This document shows positions 2,692-25,263 of a stretch of 25,330 bases of DNA, one piece after another (positions within the stretch are counted from its first letter, which is position 1; the number at the start of each line of letters is the position of its first letter). The notes beneath the pieces were generated by a model that ran no database searches, was not told where the DNA came from, and saw nothing but the letters and a program-made list of their open reading frames with translations. A program made the position numbers and the translations under genes. This stretch comes from a virus. The stretch is from the IMG/VR virus record IMGVR_UViG_3300001815_000003, positions 1-25,330 of that record; one strand, written 5' to 3'.

Positions 2692-2941
2692 TGTTTGTCT
2701 CCAGAGTGGTGGCCGTGAATGGCCAGGTTGATCCGTGAAAGGCCGGGTTTGTGTGAGCCTGACTGAACGCGTCAAGAACTCCATCCGCTAGACTCATTAA
2801 CTGGTCGAGCCGGGCGGCGAGGTCAGGACGCCCGACGGCTTCGAGGGCCATGCCGAGCTCGCCGCAAGTGGTGCTGTGGCTGATGCCGTTCTGCCCCCAA
2901 TAAAGGGCGGCGCGAAGTGGGTCTGTGATGGGGCGCGTCAT
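2678..2941 (-). CDS. Small hypothetical protein (87 aa)
   Basis: The ATG at 2941 overlaps the stop of the ERF gene in an ATGA arrangement and has GGAG 8 bases upstream, so translation is probably coupled. The sequence is mostly helical (DLAARLDQLMSLADGVLDAF), with two cysteine/histidine positions and no membrane segment. It sits between the annealase and the exonuclease, where phages often carry a small accessory protein of their recombinase pair. No family recognised. Confidence 0.75.
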   Translation of the reverse strand: MTRPITDPLRAALYWGQNGISHSTTCGELGMALEAVGRPDLAARLDQLMSLADGVLDAFSQAHTNPAFHGSTWPFTATTLETNNARH

Positions 2942-3786
2942 GGCTTGGGCTCCTGGGGCTGTGACTCGTTGGCGATTGCCGCGAGCTGGGGCAGGTGCCC
3001 AATCAACTGGCGCAGTTGCAGGGCGGAAAGCTCCGGGATACGGGGCGTCCCGAAAGCGCGCTCTAGCCAGCTTTCAAGGCGCTCGGCATGGGCAGTTAGG
3101 CCAAGACGTTCGATCTCATTAAGGGCGCGTTGCCGCAGTTGGGCGATGTCTTCCTGGGGCGGCTGCTGCTGGCCAGGCTGGCGGCGCGGGGGGGCGCTGG
3201 TGCGCTGGTTCGAGCGGGGCGCTGACTGAGGGGGCGGGACTGGTCGGCTTTCATCGTCAGCGGTGACGATCCCCAAGGCCGCGGTCAGGGCGTACCGGCG
3301 CCCATAGGACAACGAAGATCCGATCTCTTGAGCCTGGGACATGCGCCCTTCTGAAGCGACAGGGATCGGGAACGAGGCGGATTGCGAGTGACCGCCGCAG
3401 TGATGGACAGCGCAGGTCACCAGCAAGCCGCCGGGGTGCGGGGCGGTGTCGAAGGTGACGGATAGGCCATTGGCCGAAAGCGTCGGGCCTATCGCCTTCA
3501 GGATGTCTTGCAGGTTGGCGTAGGCATAGCTGAATCTGCCGCCTTTCTTCGATACGACCTCGGCGATGCGCGACTTGGGAATTGCCGGGATGTCGCGTTG
3601 AAACTGCGCCAGCGCGGCGGAGAAGTCCTCGCGGGCGCGTTCTGCACGAAGCTGCTCGCGCATGGCAAGCAACCGCTCAAGCGATTCAACGCTTACGTTA
3701 TGCTCGATCGCGCTTGCAATCAGTCGCTCCGGGTCGAGCGCCACGACGTTGGTGGGCTGCTGGGTCTTGAGTGCTGTAGTGGCCAT
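2938..3786 (-). CDS. erf: ERF-family single-strand annealing protein
   Basis: The 282-residue product carries the ERF superfamily signature: YAYANLQDILKAI at about residues 88-100, a GGLLVTC...H..GH segment, and IGSSLSYGRRYALTAALGI before an acidic DDE. ERF proteins (P22 Erf is the type member) are RecT/Beta-like annealases that pair complementary single strands during phage recombination or genome circularisation. A proline/glutamine-rich linker at about residues 187-215 separates the core from a helical C-terminal domain, as is usual. The ATG at 3786 follows GGAGG by 7 bases. Next genes in the operon are a small protein and the exonuclease; SSB lies further downstream across the circle join. 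Confidence 0.93.
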   Translation of the reverse strand: MATTALKTQQPTNVVALDPERLIASAIEHNVSVESLERLLAMREQLRAERAREDFSAALAQFQRDIPAIPKSRIAEVVSKKGGRFSYAYANLQDILKAIGPTLSANGLSVTFDTAPHPGGLLVTCAVHHCGGHSQSASFPIPVASEGRMSQAQEIGSSLSYGRRYALTAALGIVTADDESRPVPPPQSAPRSNQRTSAPPRRQPGQQQPPQEDIAQLRQRALNEIERLGLTAHAERLESWLERAFGTPRIPELSALQLRQLIGHLPQLAAIANESQPQEPKP

Positions 3787-5248: not shown

Positions 5249-5269
5249 GTGTTTAGCCTCTTGAGTGAG

Positions 5270-5292
5270 GGCGCGACCGGAGCGGCCGCGCC
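5270..5292 (-). promoter_or_regulatory. Leader hairpin upstream of the 341-residue gene
   Basis: GGCGCG at 5270-5275 pairs with CGCGCC at 5287-5292 around an 11-base loop, between the stop of the SLOG gene (5318) and the ribosome site of the next gene. Confidence 0.4.
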
Positions 5293-5317
5293 TTGGGTTG
5301 GTGCGCTGATGCGCGGA

Positions 5318-5962
5318 TTAACGCTTATGACCCCCTGGCGTGGCGGGGGCGAAAATGAAACCCTGGGACCACAAGCCAGAGCGGGAACACTGCTGCCAAC
5401 TGCCAGCAACAGGGAGGGCGGGGAGCGGGGAGCCAGCCAGCGCGCCCACAGGGAAGACGACGACAGGAAGCCCGAGCAAAGCGGCTGCGGCGACACTGGA
5501 CCAAGTGCCGGAGCCACACGAACGCCACGAGCCAGAGCCGTGCCACTGGCGAGGCGGCAGGGCACTGGGAAACGCGGCGAGCAAGGAGCCTTGGCCCTGG
5601 GCGGCCGTGAACTGGACGGCGGCGAGCGACCGACGCGCCAGACGCGCCCGAAGCGGCAGAGCCAGCGAGCCACCAGCGCGCCAATGGACAACTGCGCCAG
5701 AGCGCGGGGCGGACATGACCACGGGCCAAGCTGATGCCGTGCCGGCAAACCCGACGCCCGACGCGCCGCCGACAGCGAATACATGGACGGACGCGCTGGG
5801 GTTGGCGAGTGCAGCGGAAAGCGCGGACTGATCCGCGCCAACTGCGCAACCGGTGACGACCGACCGACCGGCACGGATGGCGGCGGCGGTGACTTGGGCC
5901 ACGACGGCCGAGCCAGGGGCCGGCAGCGCGCGGCTGCCGGCGAACATTGCAGCGGGGGCCAT
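5318..5962 (-). CDS. SLOG (DprA/LOG-like Rossmann) family protein
   Basis: I choose the ATG at 5962 because it overlaps the preceding stop as TAATG; this gives 214 residues. The SLOG nucleotide-binding signatures are clear: MFAGSRALP at residues 6-14, VVTGCAVGADQSAL at about 35-48, and GSGTWSSVAAAALLGLPVV in the C-terminal half. SLOG proteins bind nucleotide-derived ligands or act on them; DprA is the DNA-loading member and LOG the cytokinin-releasing member. Phage members are common but uncharacterised. The alternative upstream start at 6085 lacks a good ribosome site. It opens the early operon immediately behind the repressor-controlled promoter, so it is made early. Whether it binds DNA or a nucleotide signal cannot be told from sequence. 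Confidence 0.8.
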   Translation of the reverse strand: MAPAAMFAGSRALPAPGSAVVAQVTAAAIRAGRSVVTGCAVGADQSALSAALANPSASVHVFAVGGASGVGFAGTASAWPVVMSAPRSGAVVHWRAGGSLALPLRARLARRSLAAVQFTAAQGQGSLLAAFPSALPPRQWHGSGSWRSCGSGTWSSVAAAALLGLPVVVFPVGALAGSPLPALPVAGSWQQCSRSGLWSQGFIFAPATPGGHKR

Positions 5963-6324
5963 TAGACAGCCACCCATTGAGCGCGGAGGAGCGCGCGCGC
6001 TTGCGCTGCGCGCATGCCACGAGGCAGGTGGACTTTGCACGCCCACGGGGGACATTGCAGATGGAGCGGCGAGCCTGGACGCCATATGGCGCAGGCTGAG
6101 CCAGGCTTAACATCAGACGCGAAACCGGCCGCGAGAGCAGCGCGCTGGTACATATAAGCGCGTTCTTGCGTGCGCGCCGGGAGGAAAAGCGCGGGCGCGT
6201 TGGGGCGATGCCCAGCGGATGGGGCGCGCCACGCCCAAACGGAACCAGCGCGATGCTGGCGGAAAATAACCCGGCCGCGATGGCGGGCGGGAGCGGAGCC
6301 GAAAGTTGCGGCAAGTGCGACCAT
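5962..6324 (-). CDS. Small hypothetical protein, first ORF of the early operon
   Basis: This 120-residue frame ends in TAA overlapping the SLOG start (TAATG), the usual sign of translational coupling. The ATG at 6324 has a G-rich GGGGG 5 bases upstream and lies about 40 bases after the predicted transcription start. The C-terminal half (PWACKVHLPRGMRAAQARALLRAQW) looks protein-like; the N-terminal half is Arg/Ala-rich and less convincing, so a shorter product from the ATG at 6153 is possible. No family recognised. Confidence 0.5.
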   Translation of the reverse strand: MVALAATFGSAPARHRGRVIFRQHRAGSVWAWRAPSAGHRPNAPALFLPARTQERAYMYQRAALAAGFASDVKPGSACAIWRPGSPLHLQCPPWACKVHLPRGMRAAQARALLRAQWVAV

Positions 6325-6369
6325 GAGAACCCCCGAAAAAACAGAACCAAAAGAACAACCTACACTTAT

Positions 6370-6389
6370 ATTATAGCAGCCCGGCTATA
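6370..6389 (-). promoter_or_regulatory. Early leftward promoter with repressor operator
   Basis: On the minus strand the sequence TGCTATAAT (6370-6378) is a perfect extended -10 box; no good -35 is seen, as is usual for that class. The palindrome TATAGC-AGCCCG-GCTATA (plus strand 6372-6389) overlaps the -10 box and spacer. The same half-sites with the same spacing occur at 21020-21037 in front of the repressor gene. Transcription would start near 6363 and drive the early operon. Repression by steric block is the natural inference. Confidence 0.75.
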
Positions 6390-6469
6390 TTTTGGGGCCG
6401 AAAACCCATAGGATGTATTTATGCCAGGCGGCGAAAGAGGGGCGATACCCTATAGGTTGAGAGCAGGGG

Positions 6470-6485
6470 TGTTTCACGTGGAACA
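6470..6485. other. parS: parS centromere site (ParB-binding)
   Basis: The 16-mer TGTTTCACGTGGAACA reads TGTTCCACGTGAAACA on the other strand, which fits the bacterial chromosomal parS consensus TGTTNCACGTGAAACA at every fixed base. It lies in non-coding DNA 80 bp from the early-operon operator. No ParA or ParB homologue is encoded on this circle. The site is therefore probably read by the host chromosome's own ParB. By chance a match of this quality in 24 kb is very unlikely (below about 1 in 10,000 by simple base counting). Confidence 0.85.
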
Positions 6486-6502
6486 AGGGGGGGGAGGGTG
6501 TG

Positions 6503-6526
6503 CAGCGCGCGCGGGAGCGCGCGCTG
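6503..6526. repeat. Perfect 10-bp stem hairpin next to parS
   Basis: CAGCGCGCGC and GCGCGCGCTG flank a GGGA loop; every base pairs. It begins 18 bases after parS. It lacks a following T tract, so it is not a typical terminator. It lacks the T-rich loop and the G.G mismatch of the six-member hairpin family further on. Confidence 0.7.
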
Positions 6527-6672
6527 GACGCGAACGCGCCCTGGGGAGCGCGGAAACAGAGGGGCTTGACAGGGAGCGGCGGCGGCGATACGCGCCCCAT
6601 TGAAGGCCGATAGCGACCGGTAGGCGACAGCGACCGGTAGGCGACGAAGCACGAGGAAGGCGGCTAGTAGCG

Positions 6673-6697
6673 GGCGGCGCGCTATTCGCGCGCTGCC
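6673..6697. repeat. GCGC hairpin family, copy 1
   Basis: Outer stem GGC/GCC, one G/T opposition, inner stem GCGCGC/GCGCGC, loop TATTC. It shares inner stem and loop with copies 2-4, while the outer stem differs but still pairs. Confidence 0.7.
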
Positions 6698-6715
6698 GAC
6701 AAGCGGGCGGTAGCT

Positions 6716-6742
6716 GCGCGGCGCGCTATTTGCGCGCGGCGC
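6716..6742. repeat. GCGC hairpin family, copy 2
   Basis: Outer stem GCGC/GCGC, one G.G mismatch, inner stem GCGCGC/GCGCGC, loop TATTT. Confidence 0.7.
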
Positions 6743-6760
6743 GGCACGAAGCACGAGTGA

Positions 6761-6785
6761 GCCGGCGCGCTATTTGCGCGCGGGC
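6761..6785. repeat. GCGC hairpin family, copy 3
   Basis: Outer stem GCC/GGC, one G.G mismatch, inner stem GCGCGC/GCGCGC, loop TATTT. Confidence 0.7.
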
Positions 6786-6804
6786 TGTGATGCGCGCGGT
6801 AGCG

Positions 6805-6831
6805 ATGCCGCGCGCTATTCGCGCGGGGCAT
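6805..6831. repeat. GCGC hairpin family, copy 4
   Basis: Outer stem ATGCC/GGCAT, one G.G mismatch, inner stem CGCGC/GCGCG, loop TATTC. The outer stem has A-T pairs, so its pairing is not just a result of GC-rich composition. Confidence 0.7.
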
Positions 6832-7224
6832 GGCCGAACCATGCCGCACTGAAGGGCGGGCAAGGAGCGGCTGGAGCTGGGAGCCGCCACCAATGAGAGC
6901 AGCCGCCGTTTAGGCACAACGCACTTATGCACTGGCGCGGTTGTTGCCGCTGGGGCTAGCTATTAAGCCCAAAGCTTGCAAGAACCGTGACAGTGTATAA
7001 GTGCTCTTTTCCAAGCCTGTGGGAAGGCCACCATGCGCAAGCATCGAGCGGGGGCGGTTGGCCTTGCCCGCGACGAGCGCCACCCGGAGCGCGTGTGAGG
7101 GAGCGCCGGAGCTGGCCGAGGAACGAGGCGAGCGGAGGCCGACCGAGCCGCGCGGAGTGGTGGCCGAGGAGCGGGCTTCCGAACCTGACCGAACCAACTT
7201 AGCGCGCGTGCTGGAGCGCTGGAG

Positions 7225-7251
7225 CCTGGGGCGCGTTGTTTGCGCGCCAGG
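7225..7251. repeat. GCGC hairpin family, copy 5 (diverged)
   Basis: Outer stem CCTGG/CCAGG, G.G mismatch, inner stem GCGC/GCGC, 7-base loop GTTGTTT. Same architecture as copies 2-4 with a different outer stem. Confidence 0.6.
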
Positions 7252-7471
7252 CGGAAGCGCGGAAGCGCCGCGCGGTGCTGGGGTCGTGCGCCAAGCCTGG
7301 GAGCTGCCGCCCTTGCGCCGACGAGTCCCGCCCGGAGCGCGAGTGGTGGAGTGCCGTAGGCGTGCGAGGAACGAGCAGGCCGGAGGCACGGAACCGCCGC
7401 GCGGAGTGGCGGGCGAGGAGGCGCGCTGCGAGCCAGACGGGCCGAATGAGCGCGCGTGCAGGGCGGAGGAG

Positions 7472-7500
7472 CGCGGGGGCGCTGCGTTTGCGCGCCCGTG
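7472..7500. repeat. GCGC hairpin family, copy 6 (diverged)
   Basis: Outer stem CGCGGG/CCCGTG with one G-T wobble, G.G mismatch, inner stem GCGC/GCGC, 7-base loop TGCGTTT. Confidence 0.55.
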
Positions 7501-7664
7501 CGGGGGAGCCCTGCGCCGCGCGGTGCTCGAGGTCGAGAGGGGCGCTTGACCGTGGCGCGGCCCGCGCGGCAGGAAGCCGCGCCGGACACCCCAGGGACGG
7601 CCGGAGGTCGGGGAGTCTGCCGAGGGTCGGGGTCGGCCACCAGAGCCCTGCAGCACTACCACGA

Positions 7665-7715
7665 CCGCCGATCCGATGCCCTGCGAACGGGAGTGAGCAG
7701 GGCATCGGGAGGCGG
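7665..7715. repeat. Long hairpin with perfect 12-bp stem
   Basis: CCGATGCCCTGC (7673-7684) and GCAGGGCATCGG (7697-7708) are exact reverse complements around a 12-base loop. CCGCC (7665-7669) and GGCGG (7711-7715) extend the stem past a small internal loop. There is no T tract on either side, so a simple Rho-independent terminator is unlikely. It lies about 100 bases beyond the stop of the 57-residue acidic gene and could stabilise the 3' end of its mRNA or be part of a structured RNA or DNA site. Confidence 0.7.
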
Positions 7716-7813
7716 CCTAGTGAAGCCGGAGTCGGCCAAAAAAGCCCGCAGCAACGGCGGACCCTGGCGTCGAGGGGAAGGAAAGCCCGAGCCTTGCGGC
7801 CCGGGCGACCTGC

Positions 7814-7987
7814 CTAGAAGGGGATATCCCCCTCATCGATATCTAGCTGGGCGGTGATCCATTCCTTGAAGTCTTCCCCGTCCAAAAGATCCCAAGAGTC
7901 CTCAAGCCACTCCGCCCGGTCGTAGCGTTCTGCAAACTCCGGGCAATTCTCCCGCGCGCTGTCGTGGTGGTGCTGAAGTTGGTCCAT
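7814..7987 (-). CDS. Small acidic protein with SSB-like C-terminal tail (57 aa)
   Basis: The ATG at 7987 has GGAGG six bases upstream, and the frame is open to a TAG at 7814. The product has 18 Asp/Glu against 4 Arg/Lys (net about -14), three tryptophans (27, 32, 43) and an N-terminal HHH. It ends DIDEGDIPF; the element's own SSB ends FDDDIPF, and the acidic-DIPF peptide is the part of SSB that docks RecO, RecG, PriA, RecQ and exonuclease I. Composition and codon choice differ sharply from the surrounding non-coding DNA, which supports a real gene. Likely a mimic of the SSB tail that recruits or titrates SSB-binding enzymes; a DNA-mimic role is an alternative. It stands alone in the 4.6-kb non-coding region. 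I know of no named family. Confidence 0.8.
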   Translation of the reverse strand: MDQLQHHHDSARENCPEFAERYDRAEWLEDSWDLLDGEDFKEWITAQLDIDEGDIPF

Positions 7988-10131
7988 GTGAGCCTCCGCT
8001 TGGTTGCTGCGACGGCCGATCCGCCGCGTCCCGTTCTGGGCAGCGAATCACGGATTGTGCTGTCAAGGCCGGGGCCACGTCCGTTCGTCGGGCGCGCACT
8101 GAGCGGGCGGATAAGAGCGGGAGCGCTTGACCCGGCGCGCGGACTTGCTGGAAGCCAAGAGCGCGCCCGACGAACGGATGGGGTGGCCTTGACCGCTCAA
8201 TCCGTGTCGCTACCCTGGGAGGGCGCGGTGGACGGCCAACTAACCAGCGCCAGGAGGGCGCGATTTGGCCATGGATGGCCCTCCGAGCCGGAGGCGAGTT
8301 TCGAATGCGACGGCTGGCGTGCGCGGCAGGACGCCGCGCTCGACAAACCAGGGATGGCGCAGCGATTCGGTAGCGCGCCCGGAGCGTTAGCGGAGCGCTG
8401 CGTGCGGTAGCCGGGTTCCCCCTCGGGGGTGGCGGCCGCCGGCACGCGGAAAGCCGCGCGGTGCTTGAGGTCGAGCGCGGAGGAGCGGGGCGAGACGGAC
8501 TCGCGAGCCGGGGGCCGCCGGGGGGTCAAAGTCGGCCGTGACGCTGCGGAGGGTCTTCGTGCGCTGCTGCTGGAGTTGGCGGTCGAGTGCGGGGCTGGGA
8601 GCGCACGATGGCCCGGAGCAGCGGCACACAATGCCTTCTGCGTCGAGCGGGCGGACAAGTCTCAAACCAACAGGACGCTCAGGATGGAGGGGGGCTCTCA
8701 GTGGGTACTCTTTGCTCTCGCGAAGCAAAGTGGCTTGGGATCGGTGCGGTGTTTGAGTCGTGACGAGCAAGTCACCAAGGATCGCGAAGGAGAGCAGGCG
8801 CGTCCTTGATGGTCGAGCGCTGATTGCGATGTGGGAAATCGGCGAGAGTCTTTTCGGGATTGGTCGCGGGTTGGGCGTCGTGCTGGCGGGTCTGATTCAC
8901 GGATGAGCGGTCGAGGCAGGGGAGTCGAGCCGGATCTTGTTCCAGAGTCTTTCCAGGGGGCTCGGTCGGCTGCGCTGGTCTGGTTCTGGGAGCCACAGGA
9001 GCAGCGGCAAGCGCGGGCTGGGGCGTCGCTAGATTTGCATCGCCAAGGTCGGCAGTTGGCGTCGAGCGCGAAGGGTTGGCGTCTCTGGAGTCTTTCTGAG
9101 GGCTGGCGAGATCGAGCAAGGTCTGTTTCAGGGGCGGCGGTGGTGGGATGTCCCTGGGCGTCGCCGGGCAAGCAGGGGTGCCGGATAGGGTGTCTTGAGA
9201 GCAGCCGCAAGGGCGGTCAGCTGGTTGCGAGTCTCTTTCAGTGCTGGCGGTTCCTCTGGGCGGTTCTTTTTCCAAAGTCTTTCCGGTTGATTGCTCCGTG
9301 ATCGCAACCACGGAGGACGAGAGATCGGCGGGCAGCATCAGGGCAGGATCAGACGGCAGGGTGGGCGTCGAGGGAAGCAGGGCGGGCGGAGCCGGTGCCG
9401 GGATGGGAGGCGAGCCCGAATGCTCGGGAAGTCGAGCCGGCGGGCTGGGAGGTCGAGCTACCAGGAGTCGAGGTCGCGGTGCCGGCGGGCGTCTCCTCGC
9501 GCAGAACTGAGGAGGAACAGGGATGTCGGCGCGGGACGTCGAGCAGGGCAGCGGGCTAGGGCGTCGGCTGGGATGGCGGGTGCGGTGCAGGGTGCGAGGG
9601 CAAGCCGGGTCGAGCAGCAGGTGCCGGAGGTGGGACGTCGCGAGGGGAAGGCTGAGGGGCCAGCTTCGTCGGTTGGTCACTCCTCGCGCTGTTCATTCCT
9701 CACGCTGGCAGGGCGGAGGTCGAGCGGGAGCTGGGGGGAAGCCGGGGCCGAGCTGGTCAGGGCAGCGGCGGCGGGAAGGTCAGCGCGATACTAGGATGTC
9801 GGGCGGATGGTCGTCAAGGGCTGGTAGTCGAGCGGGCATCGAGAGCAGCGAGGTGCTGGTCGTGATCGAGGTCGAGCAGCCGGGGAGTTGCGGGCATTCC
9901 TGGGAGGTCATCTTCTGGGGCGATCCAAAAAAGGTCGGGGTGGCGCGAGTTGTTGAGGTGGGTGTGGGGACTGGTGATGAGTCGGGGCGGGTTGTCCTTG
10001 GGGGCGGATGCGATGGGGGTCCGGTAATCGAAAACAGCGCGGGGGTGGTCGGGCGGGCTGAATCCAGGGGCTCCCAGGTGCGTGGGCCCGCGGGCGCAGG
10101 TGGGCGGGCGTACGCATGCATGTGAGCATAT
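7988..10131. other. Non-coding, repeat-rich region with GTCGAG motifs
   Basis: No convincing gene. GTCGAG occurs about thirteen times between 8812 and 9876 (for example 8812, 8910, 9061, 9366, 9431, 9538, 9720, 9827, 9871), in all three codon phases, so it is a DNA-level motif and not a protein repeat. A second motif, GAGTCTTTC and variants, recurs at about 8846, 8945, 9088, 9229 and 9275, also in more than one phase. The plus strand is strongly G-rich over C. Long open frames here give Pro/Thr- or Gly/Val-rich low-complexity products. Confidence 0.6.
8049..8206. repeat. Large imperfect inverted repeat (49/46-base arms)
   Basis: Arms 8049-8097 and 8161-8206 are reverse complements over most of their length, including an unbroken 18-base block next to the 63-base loop and a CCTTGAC plus CAATCCGTG block at the outer ends. 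Each arm thus carries a TTGAC box pointing outward. It lies just upstream of the 57-residue acidic gene. Possible roles are a binding site for a dimeric protein, divergent promoter halves or a cruciform; the sequence does not decide. Confidence 0.65.
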
Positions 10132-10160
10132 GTATTAGTTCTAGTTCAGTTTTAACTCAA
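10132..10160 (-). promoter_or_regulatory. Leftward sigma70-like promoter in non-coding DNA
   Basis: On the minus strand TTGAGT (10155-10160) and TAATAC (10132-10137) are separated by exactly 17 bases, in a small AT-rich island in otherwise GC-rich sequence. Transcription would start near 10125 and enter the GTCGAG-repeat region, where no credible gene starts for 2 kb. It could drive a non-coding RNA or reach the small acidic gene at 7987. Confidence 0.55.
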
Positions 10161-10339
10161 AATCAGCTTTTCCTAAGTAGTTGCCGCGAGGATGGGCGTG
10201 CTCGATCTCGATCTGTTCAGCTGATGTTCACAGAATTGGCAGAGCAGGTGCAGGGGGCGCGGCGCGGGTGGGGGTCGGGTGATCGGTTGTTGGGTGGTTG
10301 CTGTTGGTCGGTGGTCAGGTCGTTGGTCAGTTCTGGTCA

Positions 10340-10447
10340 GTTGGTTGATGGGGTGTTGGGTGTTGGATGGTGGGTGGTGGTGTGGTGGTTGGGGGTTGGT
10401 GGTCTGGTGGTTGGTGGTTGATGGTGTGGTGGTTGGTGGTTGGTTGG
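10340..10447. repeat. G/T-only low-complexity tract
   Basis: By my count about 104 of 108 bases are G or T on the plus strand (exceptions: A at 10348, 10367, 10421 and C at 10404), built from GGTGG and GGTT variants. Runs of GGG and GG spaced by T suggest G-quadruplex potential. Flanking sequence from about 10256 is also G/T-biased. Frames through it give only Pro/Thr/His- or Val/Gly/Trp-rich products. Confidence 0.75.
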
Positions 10448-10504
10448 CCAGCCGGGCGGAGTCAGGCGGTTGGGGTTGGCCCGAAAAGATCGGGGTGGTT
10501 CTGG

Positions 10505-10690
10505 TTGGTATGGTCTGTTTGTGATGGTCCAAAATTGGGATAAAAGCATAACGGAATATTCAAAAAATGACTCCTAAACAATCCATAAGTAATCAATCAT
10601 CATTCATCCCATAGATTGATCTATAAATGGGTTTCGGATTCGTCACAGTTTTCCATTGGTCGGATTTTGGTATTGAAAGGTCCGCGTTCG
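10505..10690. other. AT-rich intergenic island with palindrome
   Basis: This is one of the few AT-rich stretches on the circle. It contains the palindrome ATAGAT-TG-ATCTAT at 10611-10624. No gene is seen. It could be an easily melted segment or an upstream control region of the rightward cassette. Confidence 0.45.
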
Positions 10691-10765
10691 TTCCCGCTCC
10701 GGGTTCGGAGCTTAGCTTGTGCTCAGAGATCGATCTGGTGGCTGGCGCTTGGCTCGCGCTCAGTT

Positions 10766-10827
10766 CGCGCTTGCTGCGCACTCGGGAGCGGCGGACGGGC
10801 TCGGTTGGGCGCGCTTGCTGCGCACTC
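10766..10827. repeat. 18-bp direct repeat upstream of the rightward promoter
   Basis: CGCGCTTGCTGCGCACTC occurs at 10766-10783 and again at 10810-10827, 44 bases apart, that is about four helical turns. Each copy contains a GCGC-TTGCT-GCGC mini-palindrome. The spacing, ending about 47 bases before the promoter -35 box, is suggestive of activator sites. Confidence 0.55.
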
Positions 10828-10873
10828 TGGATGCAGCGCCGTGGTCGTGCTGCTGTAGATCGTCAACTGCGCC

Positions 10874-10904
10874 TTGACGCGAAACGAATGGTGTGGTCTA
10901 GACT
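10874..10904 (+). promoter_or_regulatory. Rightward promoter of the structural cassette
   Basis: TTGACG (10874-10879) is followed after 17 bases by TCTAGA (10897-10902), or after 19 by TAGACT (10899-10904). A strong GAAGGAG ribosome site follows at 10923-10929, and the ATG is at 10937. The combination suggests a well-expressed gene. No TATAGC operator is present, so this cassette may not be under the same repressor. Confidence 0.6.
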
Positions 10905-10936
10905 ATGGGGACATTCATAAATGAAGGAGATTACTG

Positions 10937-11485
10937 ATGGCACGGGTTAAGGGGCCGCTTTTCTCGATGGAAGCCTCGGGCGCTTACGGTGGCGCTCTGG
11001 TTTTCGCTCAACGCATGGGCAAGCCTGTTGTGCGCAAGCTCGTGACGCCTTCCAATCCGAACGCGGCAAGCCAAGAGACCAGCCGCAACCGGGTTCGCGT
11101 CTTCGGTGCGATTCAACGTTTCCTAAACCAAACCGCGCTTGTGGCGTCGGGCCAGACCGACACTGACAAGACCCGGATTGGCGCTGTCTGTCCGTCTGGC
11201 CAGCGCTGGAACTCCTACATCGTCGATCAGGGCGTCGGCTCTGGCGGTGTGAACTACACTGCTGCGGTCGCGGCTTGGGATTTGCTCGACGGGACTGCTC
11301 AAGGCGCTTGGGACACTGCGGCGGGCGCGCTGACTCCCGCGATCAATACCGTGAAGCAGACCGAGGCCGGCGGCGGTGAAATCACCCCGATGGAAGCTGG
11401 CAAGGTCTGGTTTATCGCGCAATACACTCTCTATCTGATGGGCTTAGCGCCGGTGCCGGGTGCTACTCCTCCTACCTATTCGTAA
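10937..11485 (+). CDS. Putative major virion-type protein, GPLFS family paralogue 1 (182 aa)
   Basis: The protein begins MARVKGPLFSMEASGAYGGALVF, followed by a VRKLVTPSNPN segment. N-termini of the type GPLFS..ASG.YGG..VF followed by NP(N/K) and AAQ motifs occur in small structural-looking proteins of phages and prophages; I know no assigned function. It is the only rightward gene besides the next one and the repressor, and has its own promoter, a strong ribosome site and its own terminator, which fits a high-copy product such as a coat or decoration protein. Related paralogues are at 11553, 12301 (minus) and 17335 (minus). There is no signal peptide; C-terminal residues about 150-182 are hydrophobic/Pro-rich. 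The virion role is inference. Confidence 0.75.
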   Translation: MARVKGPLFSMEASGAYGGALVFAQRMGKPVVRKLVTPSNPNAASQETSRNRVRVFGAIQRFLNQTALVASGQTDTDKTRIGAVCPSGQRWNSYIVDQGVGSGGVNYTAAVAAWDLLDGTAQGAWDTAAGALTPAINTVKQTEAGGGEITPMEAGKVWFIAQYTLYLMGLAPVPGATPPTYS

Positions 11486-11508
11486 GCGGGGCAGGCATGG
11501 AGCCATTG

Positions 11509-11535
11509 AGAGCCGGGCAACCCCCGGCTCTTTTT
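11509..11535 (+). terminator. Rho-independent terminator between the two rightward genes
   Basis: AGAGCCGGG (11509-11517) and CCCGGCTCT (11523-11531) form a perfect 9-bp stem with a 5-base loop, followed by a run of T to 11535. It lies 24 bases after the stop of the first gene and just before the ribosome site of the second. It would therefore act as an attenuator, making the first protein in excess over the second. Confidence 0.9.
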
Positions 11536-11552
11536 CGTTGTGGAGGTCAAAG

Positions 11553-11951
11553 ATGGCAAAAGTGAAAGGCCCGCTGATGAGCATGGAAGCCCACGGCACT
11601 TATGGGGGGCAGGTGCGTTTCCGTCGAGGTCCGGGCGGAGTTCACGTCTACACTGGAGGCGAGCCTCACAGCAAAGGGCCAAAGCGGGTCAGCGCTGCGC
11701 AGCAGGCCCAGCGTGACAGCTATCGGGCCGCTGTCGCGCAGTGGCGTGAGCTGTCGGAGTCGGCGCGGCTACTCTGGAGCCAGCGGGGGCGGGTGGCAGG
11801 ATTGACCGCCTACGCGGCTTTCCTGAGCTTCACGCTCGGGGGAGGGAGTCTGATCGTCGATGCGACCATGTACCCAAGCGAGGGTGTCTCGGTCGGGCTC
11901 GAGGCTGCGGTGCTGGTCGAAGATCCAGGCGAAATCGCTATCGTCTGGTGA
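11553..11951 (+). CDS. Structural-type protein, GPLFS family paralogue 2 (132 aa)
   Basis: I choose the ATG at 11553, six bases after GGAGG, because the N-terminus MAKVKGPLMSMEAHGTYGG then aligns with the gene before it; a longer frame starting at 11460 would read through the terminator. After a Gly-rich N-terminal half comes AAQQAQRDSYRAAVAQWREL, then SESARLLW and a hydrophobic TAYAAFLSF, the R..F/Y..A...W..LS...R..W pattern also seen in the minus-strand paralogues. The C-terminal 40 residues look beta-rich. Expression depends on read-through of the preceding terminator. It converges with the minus-strand operon with only five bases between the stops. Confidence 0.75.
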   Translation: MAKVKGPLMSMEAHGTYGGQVRFRRGPGGVHVYTGGEPHSKGPKRVSAAQQAQRDSYRAAVAQWRELSESARLLWSQRGRVAGLTAYAAFLSFTLGGGSLIVDATMYPSEGVSVGLEAAVLVEDPGEIAIVW

Positions 11952-11956
11952 GTTGA

Positions 11957-12301
11957 TCAGGGGTGGCTCTTGAGCCATTCCGAAATGAACAGGTTGTACC
12001 CTGTCCGGGAGGCTCTCTTAGCGCGCCGGATCCAAGGCGCGCGTTCTTCCGCGCTCATTCCCTGCCAGGCGGATACCGCATCCTGAAAGCGCGAGCGTCG
12101 AGCTACCTGGGCGTGACTCATTGCGTCTTGAATGGTGGCGCTTTGCCTGCGTACCTGAAGCTGGCGATTCCCCTCAACCCTGCCGTTCCCCAGGCCGATC
12201 CGCACGCGCTGAATGACGATGGTCGTTGGGTTTCCCTCGGTGTCGGTGGTGCCGAGCTTTCCTCGGATTTCCAAGCCTATTTGTGGCGCAGTGTTTGGCA
12301 T
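11957..12301 (-). CDS. Structural-type protein, GPLFS family paralogue 4 (114 aa)
   Basis: The C-terminal half matches the other paralogues: RSRFQDAVSAWQGMS, then AEERAPWIRRAKRASRTGYNLFISEWL. The N-terminal half has diverged but keeps a G..I.GKLG and VIQRVR beta pattern. The ATG at 12301 lies six bases after the TAA of the preceding gene; the ribosome site is weak, so translational coupling is likely. It is the last gene of the long leftward operon. Confidence 0.75.
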   Translation of the reverse strand: MPNTAPQIGLEIRGKLGTTDTEGNPTTIVIQRVRIGLGNGRVEGNRQLQVRRQSATIQDAMSHAQVARRSRFQDAVSAWQGMSAEERAPWIRRAKRASRTGYNLFISEWLKSHP

Positions 12302-12307
12302 CGTGGG

Positions 12308-13267
12308 TTACCAACTGTTTGTGACGAATGTCACTTGAAGATCGGCCGAGCAGTTCGCCCATAAACAGGTCGCGTGGTAGCGCCCGAAGGTGGCCATGGC
12401 CGATACATTGAGGCGAACAATGGGCCGGCGGCGCGAGAACGGCCGCTTGCGCAGAGCGGTCAGGTTGATCAACCAGTCGAACGAGACGGAATGGGACCAA
12501 GGCGAGGACTCAACCGGAACCGCCAAGTCGCGTTGGACGAGGGTTCGGTAGGCATATGGCATCGGCTTGATGGCCGGCTCGAATGGTGCCGCGTCTTCGC
12601 CGAATGACGCGCCGATTGCTGGGGCGAACCAAGTGACAGCGCCAAACCGAGAGGAGTCGGCTTGGATGGTGCCGGTCAGGTGGACAAGAAGCGGGCGAAA
12701 GCTGTCGGGCTGAAACAAGCTCGACAGGTCGTAGTAGAGCGCGCGCTGGCGAAACTCGGTGTCTCTAAACCAACCATCGCCATCAATGCCCGCGGTCCAG
12801 CCTGGTCGTTGGCCGCTGGGGCTCGGGTCGTAGTCGGACGAGGCGACGATGCTCGGGAAGCTGCACCACGTTGGTTTGATCTCGGCTGGGTCGTAGGGGT
12901 TGCTCGCGCGGTCGAAGTCGCGGACATGGGTTGGGTAACAGGTCTCGATCAGGTCTCGATCAGGGGTGTAGGTAACGAACTCGTCGCTACTGAAGTTGCG
13001 CGCAGTCAGCGCGGCAAGCATCTCGGCGCGGTAATTGGCTTTGAAGGCGCGGCTCCATCGACTGTACCGCTGTTCCGAGAAGTGACGCGCGACGGCTTGC
13101 ATGTCGAAAGGGCGCGGGTAGGATGGGCCAGGAGCGGGGCGGCGGTTCAGCAGTGGATGGCCGGCGGCGCTGTCGTAGGGCTTCCCTGGCACGTTGTTGA
13201 CTTTCAGAACTTGCGCCAGTGCATTTTCGACTTCTGGCGTGGGTGAGTAACCGGAGATCCTAGCCAT
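12308..13267 (-). CDS. Hypothetical structural-type protein (319 aa)
   Basis: I place the start at the ATG at 13267 (MARISGYSP), about 11 bases after AAGGA; an upstream TTG at 13294 is also open. The sequence is rich in aromatic, Pro and Ser residues, without long helices or coiled coils, and its second half alternates hydrophobic residues as in beta-sheet proteins (RPLLVHLTGTI, GAVTWFAPAIG, YHATCLWANC). It lies downstream of the glycosyltransferase and fibre-like genes. It is the best-sized candidate for a capsid or tail shell protein on this circle, but I see no recognisable fold signature and do not assign one. Confidence 0.7.
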   Translation of the reverse strand: MARISGYSPTPEVENALAQVLKVNNVPGKPYDSAAGHPLLNRRPAPGPSYPRPFDMQAVARHFSEQRYSRWSRAFKANYRAEMLAALTARNFSSDEFVTYTPDRDLIETCYPTHVRDFDRASNPYDPAEIKPTWCSFPSIVASSDYDPSPSGQRPGWTAGIDGDGWFRDTEFRQRALYYDLSSLFQPDSFRPLLVHLTGTIQADSSRFGAVTWFAPAIGASFGEDAAPFEPAIKPMPYAYRTLVQRDLAVPVESSPWSHSVSFDWLINLTALRKRPFSRRRPIVRLNVSAMATFGRYHATCLWANCSADLQVTFVTNSW

Positions 13268-13381
13268 GGTGCGAGTGGTCCTTGAGCCTTGCAATCATCC
13301 GTCGATTCGGCCCTGGTGCCTGCTCTGGCGTTGGTGGAAGCGCTGGCGGCGCAAGCAGCGCGAGAGCAGGATGCGAAGGGG

Positions 13382-13732
13382 TTAGGTCGCGGTGACGCGG
13401 TAGGGTCCGCTCGCGGCGGGTGCGTGGTTGTTCGTGGGGTCGGTGATCAGGAGCGAGAAAGCCCCGGTATAGTCGAGCGTGCCGGCTGCGGTGCCATCTG
13501 CCAGGGTCGTCAGCTCGAGCAAAAGGGCGCCGGTATCGACGGCATAGAAGCGGACGTCTAGCCCAGAGCGGTCGCCAGTTCCGACAACGGAAACAGAAAC
13601 ATTCTGGCTGCCTCCGGGACCGCCCTCTTCGCCGGTGCCGGTGCCGCCGGTATCGTCTCCGGGTTCTGAGCTTTGTTGCTGTATCGCAACGCCGCCGAGG
13701 TCCGACCATCCAAGAATAATCAGGTCAAGCAT
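13382..13732 (-). CDS. Small Gly-rich structural-type protein (116 aa)
   Basis: The ATG at 13732 is favoured over an earlier one because GGAGG lies 7 bases upstream. It overlaps the glycosyltransferase stop (ATGCTTGA), so the two are coupled. The N-terminus MLDLIILGWSDLGGVAIQ is followed by an acidic Gly/Thr/Pro-rich linker (about residues 22-43) and a beta-sandwich-like domain (VSVSVVGTGD, LDVRFYAVD, GALLLELTTL, FSLLITDP). This short hydrophobic head plus linker plus beta domain resembles small tail or decoration proteins of phages. No family assigned. Confidence 0.72.
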   Translation of the reverse strand: MLDLIILGWSDLGGVAIQQQSSEPGDDTGGTGTGEEGGPGGSQNVSVSVVGTGDRSGLDVRFYAVDTGALLLELTTLADGTAAGTLDYTGAFSLLITDPTNNHAPAASGPYRVTAT

Positions 13733-15113
13733 TGAATGCCTCCATTTGTGCGGCCATGGTTGGGGTGACTCGCTCAACTGCTTTATCCCACAGTCGCCGG
13801 GATGCTAATCGCATGCTCGAAACGGTCGTTGATCGAAAGCGTTTCGTTGCGCCGGCAATCGGTAGATGAACCCAGATACCGCTTTCGCAGAGAAGGCAGC
13901 ACTGAACGTACTCCTCGAAGGTCGGCCAGCGCGGAAGCTCGCGCAGAGTCGGGCCTATCGCGGAACGGCGCATGATTTTGGCGTGCGTAACCTCGGGTGC
14001 ATAGGTGAGTTGGCGTAAAGGGTTCCAGGGGCGTCCTTTGCGCTCGATGTCGGAATGCCCGTCAGGGTGCAAGTGGCGGGTGTCGGTGTAGACGCCAACT
14101 GCGTCCGGGCGTTGGTCAAGGATGTCGACAAGCGTTTTGATGATGCCTGGGGCAAGGATGTCGTCATCGTCCGCGAAACCGACATATTCGGCATTGCCTT
14201 GACGGAAGCCGCAAGCGCGAGCAGCGCCGATATTGCCGGGGAATCCGCCTACAACAAGGTGAACATTGCAGGGCTGTTGTTCCAGGCTGGCCAGGGTTTG
14301 CTTGAGCCAGGAGGCGGAACCGGAATAGCTGACGACATGGATATCAACGCGCGCGCCTGGTTTGGTTCTGCTCTCTATGTATGGACACTGTATCTGCTTC
14401 CGATTGTGCCAAAGCATCAGGGAATCAGTGTCGCGGTCGGTCAAATGTTCGCGAGTAATGGCGGCTTCAATCTGGCGATTGATCGCGCGCTGTCTGCTGT
14501 CGCCGTGCTGCGGCTGGTTGTTGGTGACGCATGAACGCGAGCCGGGCTCGCGCCAGTGGTAGCGAAGGCCGCTCATTGCAACCGGGGTGCGGTGTCGCCA
14601 TGCCTTAATCAGCAGGCGAGCGCCCCAATACAAGGGTTCTTGCCGGGCTGGGCGGATTTCGTCTGTCACCGATAGCGCGATATCGCGGCGGACAAGGGCC
14701 CCCCACTGGATGGGCTGGGGGTTGGCCAGGTAATCCCATATCTCCAGCGGTGGATGAGGGTGGGCGTTGCTCGATGCGATTGCGATTGGTGCGAGCTGAT
14801 CGCGGCGAAAGGATGGTCCGCGGTCTATCGTGTCGTCGCTGTCGAATGAAAGGCAGAAGTCACCGCGAGCAGCCGCGACCCCGGTCGCGCGGGCTGCGGC
14901 TTGGTTGCGAAAGCCTCGGCTCGGGATAACGCGGCATCCGCGTTCGGACGCGCGGCGGAGCGCGCGGACGGTCGCGGTGCTGGTGCTGTGATCGTCGATG
15001 AGCAGTATTTCATCATCCAGGTGCGCGAGCTTGATGCTTTGCAGAGCCTGTTCAAGCTCGCTCGGTTCGGTGTTATGCACCGGGGCAATGGCGCTGATGG
15101 ACGGCTTTATCAT
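13725..15113 (-). CDS. Tandem GT-A (family 2) glycosyltransferase (462 aa)
   Basis: Two glycosyltransferase-2-like domains lie in one chain. Domain 1: SISAIAPVHN at 5-14, LLIDDHS at 37-43 and the DxD-type metal site FDSDDT at 90-95. Domain 2: RVDIHVVSYSG at about 255-265, GNIGAARACGFRQG at 293-306 and the metal site FADDDD at 313-318. Such enzymes move sugars from nucleotide-sugar donors. The ATG overlaps the stop of the fibre-like gene (ATGA) and the gene is followed with overlap by a small structural-type protein, so it is embedded in the virion-type module. It may glycosylate virion proteins or alter the host surface in the lysogen; sequence alone does not decide. Soluble, no membrane segment. 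Confidence 0.88.
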   Translation of the reverse strand: MIKPSISAIAPVHNTEPSELEQALQSIKLAHLDDEILLIDDHSTSTATVRALRRASERGCRVIPSRGFRNQAAARATGVAAARGDFCLSFDSDDTIDRGPSFRRDQLAPIAIASSNAHPHPPLEIWDYLANPQPIQWGALVRRDIALSVTDEIRPARQEPLYWGARLLIKAWRHRTPVAMSGLRYHWREPGSRSCVTNNQPQHGDSRQRAINRQIEAAITREHLTDRDTDSLMLWHNRKQIQCPYIESRTKPGARVDIHVVSYSGSASWLKQTLASLEQQPCNVHLVVGGFPGNIGAARACGFRQGNAEYVGFADDDDILAPGIIKTLVDILDQRPDAVGVYTDTRHLHPDGHSDIERKGRPWNPLRQLTYAPEVTHAKIMRRSAIGPTLRELPRWPTFEEYVQCCLLCESGIWVHLPIAGATKRFRSTTVSSMRLASRRLWDKAVERVTPTMAAQMEAFNA

Positions 15114-16195
15114 GAGCTTCCAGGAAGCGATACGGTATAAAAGATCGGCCCTAGTTGTTCGCTGAAACCGCCGAAGCTGACGGTCGCGGTCAACTGCCCG
15201 GAGCCCTCGGCAAAGTTCGATTGGCCATTCCAGACATCAAAGCGAAAGTTGAACTCAGGACCACGGAAAGCCCCCCAGAATTGGGTTCCCTGTCCCGAGT
15301 CATAGGTTTCGATTTCGGGGTCGTGCCGGCCGGGCGCGAAGTCTAGCGGGCTCCATTGGTTATCGAATGAGTCTAGAACGGCGTCGGGAGGCAGTCCGAC
15401 GATAAGAGCGCGCGCGGCTTCCCAGGGTGGATTCTGGTATGTGTGCTCGCCAGGGGTGCCAGAAACCTCCTCAATCGGCAGGCTTACGGTTTCTTTGCTG
15501 TGGGTCATCTTCTCGGCATCCCACCAGGCTAGGCGCATTTCACCCACTGAGGGCGGAGAGAAATGGCGAATGGCGGTGCTGCCATTAGGAAGGGTGGATA
15601 GCTCTATTGTAACGGGCGGATCATCCGGGCTGATGCGGATCACTCGGCAGGGTGGGGAAGATACCCACGAGCGTGGCACGCGAATGTAATGCTCTTGGTC
15701 CCCTGATGGCGGCTGGATCGTTAGCTTGGTCACAAGCGGAATGTCAGAGTTGTCCATTCCGCCAGGAGTCGATACAGCAAGATCGGAAACGATATCTGAG
15801 GGCGTGACGGTCGAGGGTTGACCATCAAGCGGTACGGTGATGGTGGTGGCGACCGGGGTCAATGTCGAAGCTTCGGTGAAGCCCGGGAGGGTGGCGCGCG
15901 CTAAAACCGCGCGCGCTTCGACGATGGCATCTGTGGCGATGGTGCCGGCTTGGGCGAGGATTTTGTCTCGCGACAGGCGCATGGTCGCGCTTGACCACGA
16001 GGCTAGCCAAAGCTGCCAATTATCGTCGTCAAGTCGAACATGGATGCTCATCTGATCGCCGTCCGCCCATTGGTCGATGGCGGCGACAGCGTTAAAGGTG
16101 CGTTTGCCGGGTAGGGCGCCCCCCGATGAAAGATCAAGGTAGGTGGTCTGAAAGGTCGCGGATTGGCCGGTCAGGTCGGAATAGCGAAGCGTCAC
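15110..16195 (-). CDS. Tail-fibre/receptor-binding-like protein (361 aa)
   Basis: The start is GTG at 16195 with GGAG 9 bases upstream; the nearby ATG leads at once into a stop. The N-terminus has the pattern FNAVAAIDQWADGDQMSI, then VRLDDDNWQLWLASW and MRLSRDKILAQAG, which resembles a module found at the N-terminus of many phage tail-fibre or baseplate proteins (W..GD...V.I.D...W......Y......L.R...L.S). The rest is beta-rich with many Pro/Gly/Asp turns, as in fibres. It is followed by the overlapping glycosyltransferase gene. A receptor-binding role is likely but inferred. Confidence 0.7.
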   Translation of the reverse strand: MTLRYSDLTGQSATFQTTYLDLSSGGALPGKRTFNAVAAIDQWADGDQMSIHVRLDDDNWQLWLASWSSATMRLSRDKILAQAGTIATDAIVEARAVLARATLPGFTEASTLTPVATTITVPLDGQPSTVTPSDIVSDLAVSTPGGMDNSDIPLVTKLTIQPPSGDQEHYIRVPRSWVSSPPCRVIRISPDDPPVTIELSTLPNGSTAIRHFSPPSVGEMRLAWWDAEKMTHSKETVSLPIEEVSGTPGEHTYQNPPWEAARALIVGLPPDAVLDSFDNQWSPLDFAPGRHDPEIETYDSGQGTQFWGAFRGPEFNFRFDVWNGQSNFAEGSGQLTATVSFGGFSEQLGPIFYTVSLPGSS

Positions 16196-16223
16196 GATTG
16201 CATTCTCCGGTTGGTGCTGCTGA

Positions 16224-16754
16224 CTATGGGGTGAAAGGGAGTTCGATTGGGGTATGAAGCGGCCAGGCGACGGAATCGGGTTTGCTCGCGATCCGCCAGC
16301 GTGACCAGAAATGGGCGGTCACCTGGGAAACGATGCTCTCGCCTTCTAGCATGACACTGGTGTCGAGGTTGGTGGTCGCGCTGCTCACGCTGATGTTGTG
16401 AGAGCCGACGATTGCGGCAGTGTCGTCGAAGATGGCGATCTTCTCGTGGAGGACTCTGCTACCGGTTATCACGCGCACTTGCCAGCCAGCGGCGAGGAGC
16501 TTTTGCGCGGTGTCGTAGTTCGGTCGGCGCTTGCCGACCTTGAGCGGGCTAGGGCTAAGGATAATGCGGCACTGGAGGCCGCGGGCGGCGGCGTCGGTGC
16601 AGGCGGCGAGGATGTTATGGGTCGGTGTGTGCCAGCGTGGCGAGAACAGAAAGACACTGATCTTGACCGAGGTCTTAGCGTCGCGAAGCTGACGCATGAA
16701 CTGCTCGCGCCAGTCTCCGCCGGTTAGCAAGGTCACGTCGGCCAAGGTGCTCAT
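16224..16754 (-). CDS. Phospholipase D-like (single HKD) protein (176 aa)
   Basis: One complete HKD motif is present: H103-x-K105, D110 and GSHN at 117-120 (in VLHEKIAIFDD and IVGSHNIS). A short N-terminal beta/alpha half (KISVFLFSP) is as in Nuc-type members, which act as dimers to assemble one active site. The family includes nucleases, lipases and restriction enzymes such as BfiI. There is no signal peptide. Placement between the holin-like gene and the fibre-like gene suggests either a nuclease acting on DNA at exit or entry, or a lipase used in lysis; I cannot choose. Confidence 0.87.
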   Translation of the reverse strand: MSTLADVTLLTGGDWREQFMRQLRDAKTSVKISVFLFSPRWHTPTHNILAACTDAAARGLQCRIILSPSPLKVGKRRPNYDTAQKLLAAGWQVRVITGSRVLHEKIAIFDDTAAIVGSHNISVSSATTNLDTSVMLEGESIVSQVTAHFWSRWRIASKPDSVAWPLHTPIELPFTP

Positions 16755-16766
16755 AATTGATCCGGA

Positions 16767-17000
16767 TCAAAGGTGCGGCCAGCTAGTCGGGCGACCTTGA
16801 TTCTGCTCGCGCTTGGTGACTTTGCCGGATGGGTCTGGGAGAAACATCTCCACCACGCCACCGATAGCCACGCCAGCGGCAAGGATGCCGGCTTGCTGCT
16901 CGGGTGAAAGGCTCAGGCCAAGGGCGGTCAGCACGAAGATGAGGCCGCGCCAGGTGGAGCGCTCATCAAGGCGGTCGATCAAGAAGCGGTCGAGTTTCAT
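16767..17000 (-). CDS. Holin-like small membrane protein (77 aa)
   Basis: The ATG at 17000 follows GGAGG by about 10 bases. The pattern STWRGLIFVLTALGLSLSPEQ, followed by AGILAAGVAIGGVVEMFLPD, gives two short hydrophobic helices separated by a polar turn, then a charged C-terminal tail; this is a frequent type among phage proteins annotated as holins. Holins make holes in the inner membrane to release the endolysin, here the M15 peptidase encoded at 19423, which itself lacks a signal peptide. Spacing from the endolysin is unusual, with seven genes from 19055 to 17018 standing between or around them. Confidence 0.72.
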   Translation of the reverse strand: MKLDRFLIDRLDERSTWRGLIFVLTALGLSLSPEQQAGILAAGVAIGGVVEMFLPDPSGKVTKREQNQGRPTSWPHL

Positions 17001-17017
17001 GGTTTGGTGTCCTCCGG

Positions 17018-17335
17018 TTAGGTTGGGATGGTCGGCAGTGCTGGCGAAACGATGTCTTGCTGTAGAAACTCACTGACAAAGAGTTGGTAGCCGTTCATTG
17101 GCTGGGACACGGCGGCATTGCGCCATTGGTTCTTTTGGCTCGTGGCAAGGTCGGACCATGCGGCGGCGGCTTCGGCGAATCGAGTGGAACGCTGCTGCTG
17201 GGCTGCCGTGCGGGGTTTGGTCATGGTCCGGGTCTTGGCTGCCACAGCTTGCCCTCCGTTGTTGCGAAACTCGATCAGGTCCGCGAATACGCCAGAGGCC
17301 GAGGCGGAGAACAGTGGGCCGGTCAGTTTGGGCAT
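17018..17335 (-). CDS. Structural-type protein, GPLFS family paralogue 3 (105 aa)
   Basis: It starts MPKLTGPLFSASASGVF, then ADLIEFRNNGG, with a later TAAQQQRSTRFAEAAAAW, then KNQWRNAAV and NGYQLFVSEFL: both halves of the paralogue pattern are present, which makes it the link between the N-terminal halves of paralogues 1 and 2 and the C-terminal half of paralogue 4. The ribosome site is weak, and the gene follows the stop of the membrane-anchored protein by 15 bases. Likely a virion component, inferred from its relatives. Confidence 0.75.
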   Translation of the reverse strand: MPKLTGPLFSASASGVFADLIEFRNNGGQAVAAKTRTMTKPRTAAQQQRSTRFAEAAAAWSDLATSQKNQWRNAAVSQPMNGYQLFVSEFLQQDIVSPALPTIPT

Positions 17336-19423: not shown

Positions 19424-19871
19424 GGTTGGCCTCCTGTTCGGTGAGGGGTGGTTCGGACTGGTTAAGGGGTACGTCGTCGCGGAGATGCGCGAGAATGGCC
19501 CGGATATGGCGCTGGCCGCGTTTGCGCTTGTGCTCCCATGTCTCGGTTGGGAGTAGCTTGAAATCGCCGTCAGCGGCGTTTAGGCGGGCTTGCTGGGCGC
19601 GCTGCTCGGGTGTGCCTGGTCTGGCGGCGGCGCGGAACTCTGCGATGCTGGGCGGGAAACGGTGATTGGCGCGGCAGTGCTTCAGCCCGCGATCAATCTC
19701 GTGACCAGTGAGCCCCTGGAGACCCTGTTGCCACTCCCGGGTCAACAGTTCAAGGTCGGTGGCCGCGATGGTGTCGGCCCAGGCTAGCGGCCAGAGCAGG
19801 CCGAAGCGGGCGAACAGCGCGTCAATCCACTTGCGGGAAATGAGCGCGCGCTCGGTCGAAGAGGTCGGCAT
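19416..19871 (-). CDS. Phage replication protein P-like helicase loader (151 aa)
   Basis: I prefer the ATG at 19871 (MPTSSTERALISRKW); the longer frame continues into the O-like gene with low-complexity residues. The body has WIDALFARFGLLW, LLTREWQQGLQGL, IDRGLKHCR and FPPSIAEFRAA: the W...L..L....I..GL..CR....PP...EF pattern of lambda P-like loaders, which bring the host DnaB helicase to the phage origin. It overlaps the O-like initiator by about 50 bases, matching the O-P order of lambdoid phages. Confidence 0.82.
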   Translation of the reverse strand: MPTSSTERALISRKWIDALFARFGLLWPLAWADTIAATDLELLTREWQQGLQGLTGHEIDRGLKHCRANHRFPPSIAEFRAAARPGTPEQRAQQARLNAADGDFKLLPTETWEHKRKRGQRHIRAILAHLRDDVPLNQSEPPLTEQEANHG

Positions 19872-24180: not shown

Positions 24181-24251
24181 GTGATCAGTCTCCTGGGTGT
24201 TGTTCTGCTTGGTCGTGAGTGGTGGGCGCGCGCGAGCGCCCTAGGGTGCTG

Positions 24252-25250: not shown

Positions 25251-25263
25251 TATTGGGGCTCCG

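Follow-up and report, generated by a model that had tools for sequence, protein, structure and literature searches.

SSB is the single-strand DNA-binding protein of the cell, and its C-terminal tip docks onto repair enzymes. Many enzymes of replication and repair recognise this tip as their docking signal, and it is being explored as a target for antibacterials (PMC5872125, PMC10143822). In the SSB-Ct pockets the C-terminal Phe is buried, the carboxylate is held by a basic lip and the Asp residues are met by a basic ridge, and binding to RecG is strongly weakened when the Phe is removed or the Pro is changed (PMC10164576). The requirements for docking are a free C-terminal Phe, a preceding Pro and upstream acidic residues (PMC10164576, PMC10143822). 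The natural SSB-Ct peptide binds RecO with a KD of 0.14 µM and ExoI with a KD of 3.07 µM, the DFDD part and proximal residues adding to the affinity (PMC10143822), and a KD of 3-4 µM is reported for RecG (PMC10164576).

Two small acidic phage proteins were used for comparison, T7 gp5.9, a highly acidic mimic directed at RecBCD, and P22 Arf, a suspected mimic (PMC9836394). The P22 arf gene, placed immediately upstream of erf, encodes 47 residues with a net charge of -11, and its annotation credits it with stimulating Erf recombination. No description of a phage protein presenting only the SSB tip was found among the open-licence papers that literature searches returned. If the docking role considered below for a 57-residue phage protein is true, such a tip-only protein would show viral manipulation of the SSB hub, would serve as a natural model for SSB-Ct inhibitors, and would give small-ORF surveys a simple signature in the form of an acidic IPF end without an OB fold.

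The element and its 57-residue gene

The window analysed here is a stretch of 25,330 nucleotides from an IMG/VR virus record. Its first 1,311 bases (1-1311) are repeated exactly at its end (24020-25330), which points either to a circle of 24,019 bp or to direct terminal repeats of the genome. The genes of the element encode an integrase, two HTH regulators, a replication protein, ERF, an exonuclease, SSB, a RusA-like resolvase and an endolysin (Table 1). PHROGs and Pfam comparisons of the proteins scanned revealed no terminase, portal or capsid gene. Neither Rfam families nor tRNAs were found in the window.

Table 1. Positions in the window of the 57-residue gene, its surroundings and the recombination and replication genes of the element.
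Feature	Position	Strand	Details
57-residue acidic protein gene	7814-7987	minus	ATG at 7987, TAG stop at 7816-7814; coding score +18.2 bits
Shine-Dalgarno GGAGG	7993-7997	minus	5 nt before the ATG, the sole start codon of the gene
Codons of SSB-type tip DIDEGDIPF	7817-7843	minus	final four residues identical to those of the element's SSB (FDDDIPF)
Intrinsic-terminator-like hairpin	7785-7806	minus	9-bp stem, TTTCCTTCCC; begins 7 nt past the stop codon
Long near-perfect hairpin upstream of the gene	8049-8206		arms 8049-8070/8185-8206 and 8075-8100/8158-8183
Gene-poor, GC-rich, hairpin-rich region (gap)	5249-10936		57-residue gene its only gene
SSB	23440-23943	minus	ends FDDDIPF; PF00436 3e-38, phrog_44
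ERF single-strand annealing protein	2938-3786	minus	PF04404, phrog_155
Exonuclease	1768-2784	minus	phrog_2139; relatives annotated as PD-(D/E)XK nucleases
Replication organiser	19822-20712		

A small acidic protein had been proposed at this locus in an earlier note, which left the strand unstated. The gene was found on the minus strand (ORF 7987 to 7814, product MDQLQHHHDSARENCPEFAERYDRAEWLEDSWDLLDGEDFKEWITAQLDIDEGDIPF), the plus strand of the same interval being interrupted by a stop. The properties given there were all borne out, namely the GGAGG, the three Trp, the net charge of -14 (D+E = 18, K+R = 4) and the C-terminus DIDEGDIPF, and the element's own SSB, a PF00436 member, does end in FDDDIPF.

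Coding potential was assessed with a model of codon usage built from 20 window genes, and all ORFs of at least 30 residues in the gap (n = 74) were scored. The runner-up to the 57-residue ORF (0.325 bits per codon; codon-position GC 0.68/0.32/0.72) scored only +0.8 bits, and the highest score obtained in 400 dinucleotide-preserving shuffles of the gap was 10.7. The claim that this is the only credible gene in 4.6 kb was therefore correct and even conservative, as it has the sole clearly positive score across the whole 5.7 kb. The gene was taken as real because its coding signal is unique in the gap and was never matched in the shuffles, and because it has both a Shine-Dalgarno sequence and a terminator-like hairpin; terminator-like sites as such are not enriched in the region, and the evidence for this hairpin is its position.

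The long hairpin upstream of the gene is very stable (fold z of -7.3 to -9.6, about -7 to -10 on both strands), and the interval separating it from the gene yielded no sigma-70-like site. Further very stable long hairpins lie at 6921-7004 and 7673-7708. Ten gap ORFs compared with PHROGs gave no family below 1e-3, and nucleotide searches gave no match to phages for the gap and none to plasmids for its central part. The plus strand carries more G than C in nearly every interval of the skew calculation though most genes are on the minus strand, with a peak skew of 0.43 at 9501-10500, a pattern that looks as if replication ran unidirectionally. Leftward from the 57-residue gene follow, all on the same strand, genes for a 341-residue protein, a 100-residue protein, ERF, the exonuclease, a 350-residue protein and, later, SSB; the 341-residue early gene downstream is separated from the 57-residue gene by 2.6 kb and the terminator-like hairpin.

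The SSB-type tail and the chance of such an ending

An acidic C-terminal tip ending in I-P-F, a trait of the SSB family, is present in the 57-residue protein. As in the SSB-Ct of PF00436 proteins, the last four residues are DIPF, acidic residues precede them (here at -4 and -6), the C-terminal Phe is free and the segment is probably disordered; the features that docking requires according to published work are present in the tail. The protein differs from SSB-Ct proteins in having no OB fold, in carrying the tip on a body predicted to be helical and in the Gly at -5 (residue 53), where SSB has Asp; the proximal Phe of DFDDDIPF is also missing. Because of the Gly and the missing Phe, the tip would be expected to bind somewhat more weakly than that of SSB.

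When the residues of the protein were shuffled 300,000 times, endings of the form [DE][ILVM]PF arose 27 times (~9e-5); from the composition of the element they are expected at 3.9e-5 per gene, and SSB-type endings were absent from all 26,250 ORFs of the shuffled gap. Over the few dozen genes of the element, the chance of such an ending amounts to some 0.1-0.4%. In a survey covering very many windows, such endings would nonetheless be met occasionally by chance alone, and this is the ground for supposing a real small acidic phage protein of some other function that reads DIPF at its end by coincidence: 4-9 cases per 100,000 genes are expected, so that any very large scan will contain them, and no homologue shows selection on the tail. 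Against this, the ending coincides with an acidic, probably disordered terminus and with exonuclease, ERF and SSB genes in one element, and a purely fortuitous ending is considered improbable.

Homologues were sought by several routes. Peptide-pattern scans of IMG/VR and of 84,980 GTDB species, which reach only close relatives, found none within that reach, and none was found in 369 Gammaproteobacteria genomes. Comparison with Pfam, PHROGs, NCBIfam, PADLOC and the PDB gave no match. Searches with tblastn returned nothing significant (best E 0.1 for phages, E of at least 1 for plasmids); the matches to T4-like and Aeromonas phages were not significant and did not keep the tail. The only match in genome contigs, in Acinetobacter pittii, was a chance match within a 412-residue ORF, and where this match recurs in an A. 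baumannii record, the annotation is TIGR03862 flavoprotein. A degenerate internal motif matched mostly long unrelated ORFs in IMG/VR, many of them terminase-like. Since no homologue was found, conservation of the tail could not be demonstrated. The interpretation offered in the earlier note, that a free mini-protein with this tail could titrate or redirect host repair enzymes, is partly supported, by a real gene, the docking-type features of the tail and an exonuclease/ERF system that could profit from a block of ExoI; the check proposed there, a search for homologues that keep the DIPF end, returned no homologue at all.

The protein body compared with SSB, Arf and gp5.9

A single-sequence AF2 prediction of low confidence (mean pLDDT 58) placed four short broken helices, with no coiled coil, in residues 3-49 and an unstructured tail in residues 50-57. 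A Foldseek search with this model, which is too weak to bear much weight, gave no fold match. No conserved replication or ssDNA-binding domain was detected in the protein, the PHROGs comparison giving no family below E 0.42. Membership of the SSB family (PF00436) was rejected, given the absence of an OB fold, the empty Pfam, PHROGs and NCBIfam comparisons, the length of 57 residues and the all-helical model.

P22 Arf resembles the protein in being very small and acidic, in belonging to a phage with ERF-type recombination and in being encoded upstream of erf on the same strand. However, Arf ends in FAGYYS and has no SSB tail, and arf overlaps erf, whereas the 57-residue gene stands apart as a unit of its own, with 4 kb and the terminator-like hairpin between it and the ERF gene downstream, so that the Arf trait of a small acidic gene adjoining erf is absent here. 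T7 gp5.9 is likewise very small, highly acidic and largely helical, but it is a RecBCD inhibitor built as a parallel coiled-coil dimer with surface acids, an architecture for which the low-confidence model of the 57-residue protein, with its four short helices, gave no support.

These resemblances suggest a DNA mimic or an Arf-like recombination accessory, in which the acidic helical body would do the work, perhaps by acting on RecBCD or some other nuclease, while an incidental or auxiliary part would fall to the IPF end. The precedents of gp5.9 and Arf favour it, as does the finding that, among lambdoid phages, RecBCD inhibitors were found only in those that also carry a recombinase (PMC3784561). 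Such a role is nevertheless held to be rather unlikely, as homology to Arf was rejected (local score 21, 68% of shuffles scoring as well), no significant sequence or fold match to gp5.9 or any other PDB entry was obtained, and the low-confidence model has short broken helices in place of a coiled coil. Judged by sequence, the protein is neither an SSB nor an Arf homologue and has no detectable relationship to gp5.9; it is an orphan small phage protein in which a putative docking tip of a known kind sits on a body of no known family.

Tails on other phage proteins and possible modes of action

The frequency of such tails was estimated from 80 IMG/VR loci, each surrounding a relative of the element's exonuclease, with 1,836 greedily called ORFs in all. 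An acidic PF ending was present in 16 of these, none shorter than 73 residues, and a free mini-protein with an SSB-type tail was not seen in the 80 loci. The carriers tested belong to SSB families (phrog_18154, phrog_7364), a primase/helicase family (phrog_239) and uncharacterised families (phrog_862, phrog_18187); most are SSB-like, primase/helicase or uncharacterised families beside the exonuclease, while at least one of the 16 is likely spurious (an antisense ORF repeated in L140-L143) and another is a 168-residue ORF of L154. In such phages the tail therefore mostly marks ssDNA and replication proteins, and points to that biology here. These proteins share with the 57-residue protein the kind of tail and a phage with exonuclease genes of the same family, but they carry larger conserved domains, whereas the latter is a free mini-protein without a known domain.

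A tail-anchored pattern scan of IMG/VR returned 50 loci, consisting of SSBs, OB-like proteins, two unrelated small proteins and noise, with no homologue of the 57-residue protein among them. The two small proteins belong to no known family: one of 82 residues (L227:917-1165) ends in ESDIPF, overlaps a nuclease-like ORF and recurs in near-identical contigs, and one of 85 residues (L216:967-1224) ends in DEDDIPF. They are small like the 57-residue protein but non-homologous to it, and their tails were the selection criterion of the search.

Tails of this kind carried by other phage proteins bring partners to ssDNA, which makes an adaptor role nearly as plausible as displacement of SSB from ExoI. 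The helical part would bind a phage protein (ERF, the replication organiser or SSB) or DNA, and through the tail a host enzyme, for instance PriA, DnaG, Pol III chi or RecO, would be recruited to the phage DNA. The location of the tail on ssDNA and fork proteins elsewhere in phages (SSB-like proteins and primase/helicases) is consistent with this, and the tail of the HK620 SSB is needed for loading of the phage annealing protein Sak4 (PMC5928155). With no known interaction domain in the protein and no adjoining partner gene, an adaptor is regarded as possible though doubtful.

The best reading of the protein as a whole is a small helical accessory of Exo-ERF recombination presenting an SSB-type tip, whether as decoy, adaptor or DNA mimic. 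The form tentatively preferred, with a probability of roughly one in three, is that of a strongly acidic early protein whose free tip would compete with SSB for host SSB-binding enzymes and so aid exonuclease/ERF recombination, a bare tip on a small helical carrier competing for or redirecting the SSB partners and hijacking the hub without any ssDNA-binding domain. Once translated, presumably early, and folded into helices, the protein would most likely dock its tip in the SSB-Ct pocket of host enzymes, with ExoI, RecO, RecG, PriA and Pol III chi as candidate targets, and would there compete with SSB. The likely benefit would be that 3' single strands produced by the element's exonuclease are spared from ExoI or from RecO/RecA loading. 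Deletion of xonA improves RecET- and Red-mediated assembly (PMC13048471), and displacing SSB from ExoI would accordingly suit a phage with an exonuclease and an annealing protein.

In favour of competition with SSB count the unique coding signal with its Shine-Dalgarno sequence and hairpin, the DIPF ending shared with the element's SSB and the common strand of the exonuclease, ERF and SSB genes. Against it count the lack of a homologue, Gly53 and the missing proximal Phe, and the cost of titration at micromolar affinity, as lone SSB-Ct peptides bind with a KD of about 0.1-4 µM and a decoy would need high abundance. The distance of 2.6 kb from the 341-residue early gene, the gene's own terminator-like hairpin, the occurrence of chance tails in very large scans and the lack of a match in the related records L262 and L263 also count against it. 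Overall, the docking reading is plausible and unproven.

Relatives of the element and the variable region

In 10937-17335 four divergent paralogues are encoded, of which those at 10937, 11553 and 17018 start with M-[AP]-[KR]-[VL]-[KT]-G-P-L and the one at 11957 is more distant; further copies occur in L262 and L263. The paralogue start M-A-[KR]-V-K-G-P-L led to three related records, L262, L263 (record G003, 20.5 kb) and L264, while ERF, the exonuclease and a 361-residue protein, used as single queries in IMG/VR, gave no close relatives. L262 and L263 have several genes in common with the window, broadly in matching order, among them that of the 182-residue protein at 52-54% identity, and L264 shares little with the window beyond the family of that protein. 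The 182-residue protein of the element was absent from 369 Gammaproteobacteria and 398 Pseudomonadota genomes. In G003, RecT and YqaJ-type genes replace ERF and the phrog_2139 exonuclease.

Neither SSB nor the 57-residue protein was matched in the three related records, an absence that weighs little as the records may be fragments, and G003 contains no ORF of at least 20 residues ending in [ILVMFDE]PF. That the element has both SSB and the 57-residue protein while G003 matched neither agrees with an anti-defence decoy, in which the free SSB-like tip would blunt host systems triggered by phage SSB; phage SSBs trigger Retron-Eco8, AbpAB, Hachiman, Nhi and Hna (PMC10732053, PMC13381803, PMC12887533). 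Yet the trigger named in the cited passages is the whole SSB or the SSB-ssDNA complex and not the tip, and no homologue was found among the PADLOC families, a weak test as PADLOC is a library of defence systems; a decoy of this sort is judged very unlikely.

A gene-poor stretch, at least 3.6 kb long (L265 3850-7483), likewise adjoins the early genes of G003; it is GC-rich, has long inverted repeats and shows no significant nucleotide similarity to the gap of the window. In L262 (8477-10629) a GmrSD_N (NsnA-like) gene and a HEPN gene, possibly defence cargo, come after the 182-residue gene, which indicates that cargo can be accommodated on this side of the genome. From its setting, the 57-residue gene has the look of an accessory gene within a variable region. 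The 182-residue gene and its neighbour (10937-11951) are inverted relative to the late genes when the window is set against L262 and L263.
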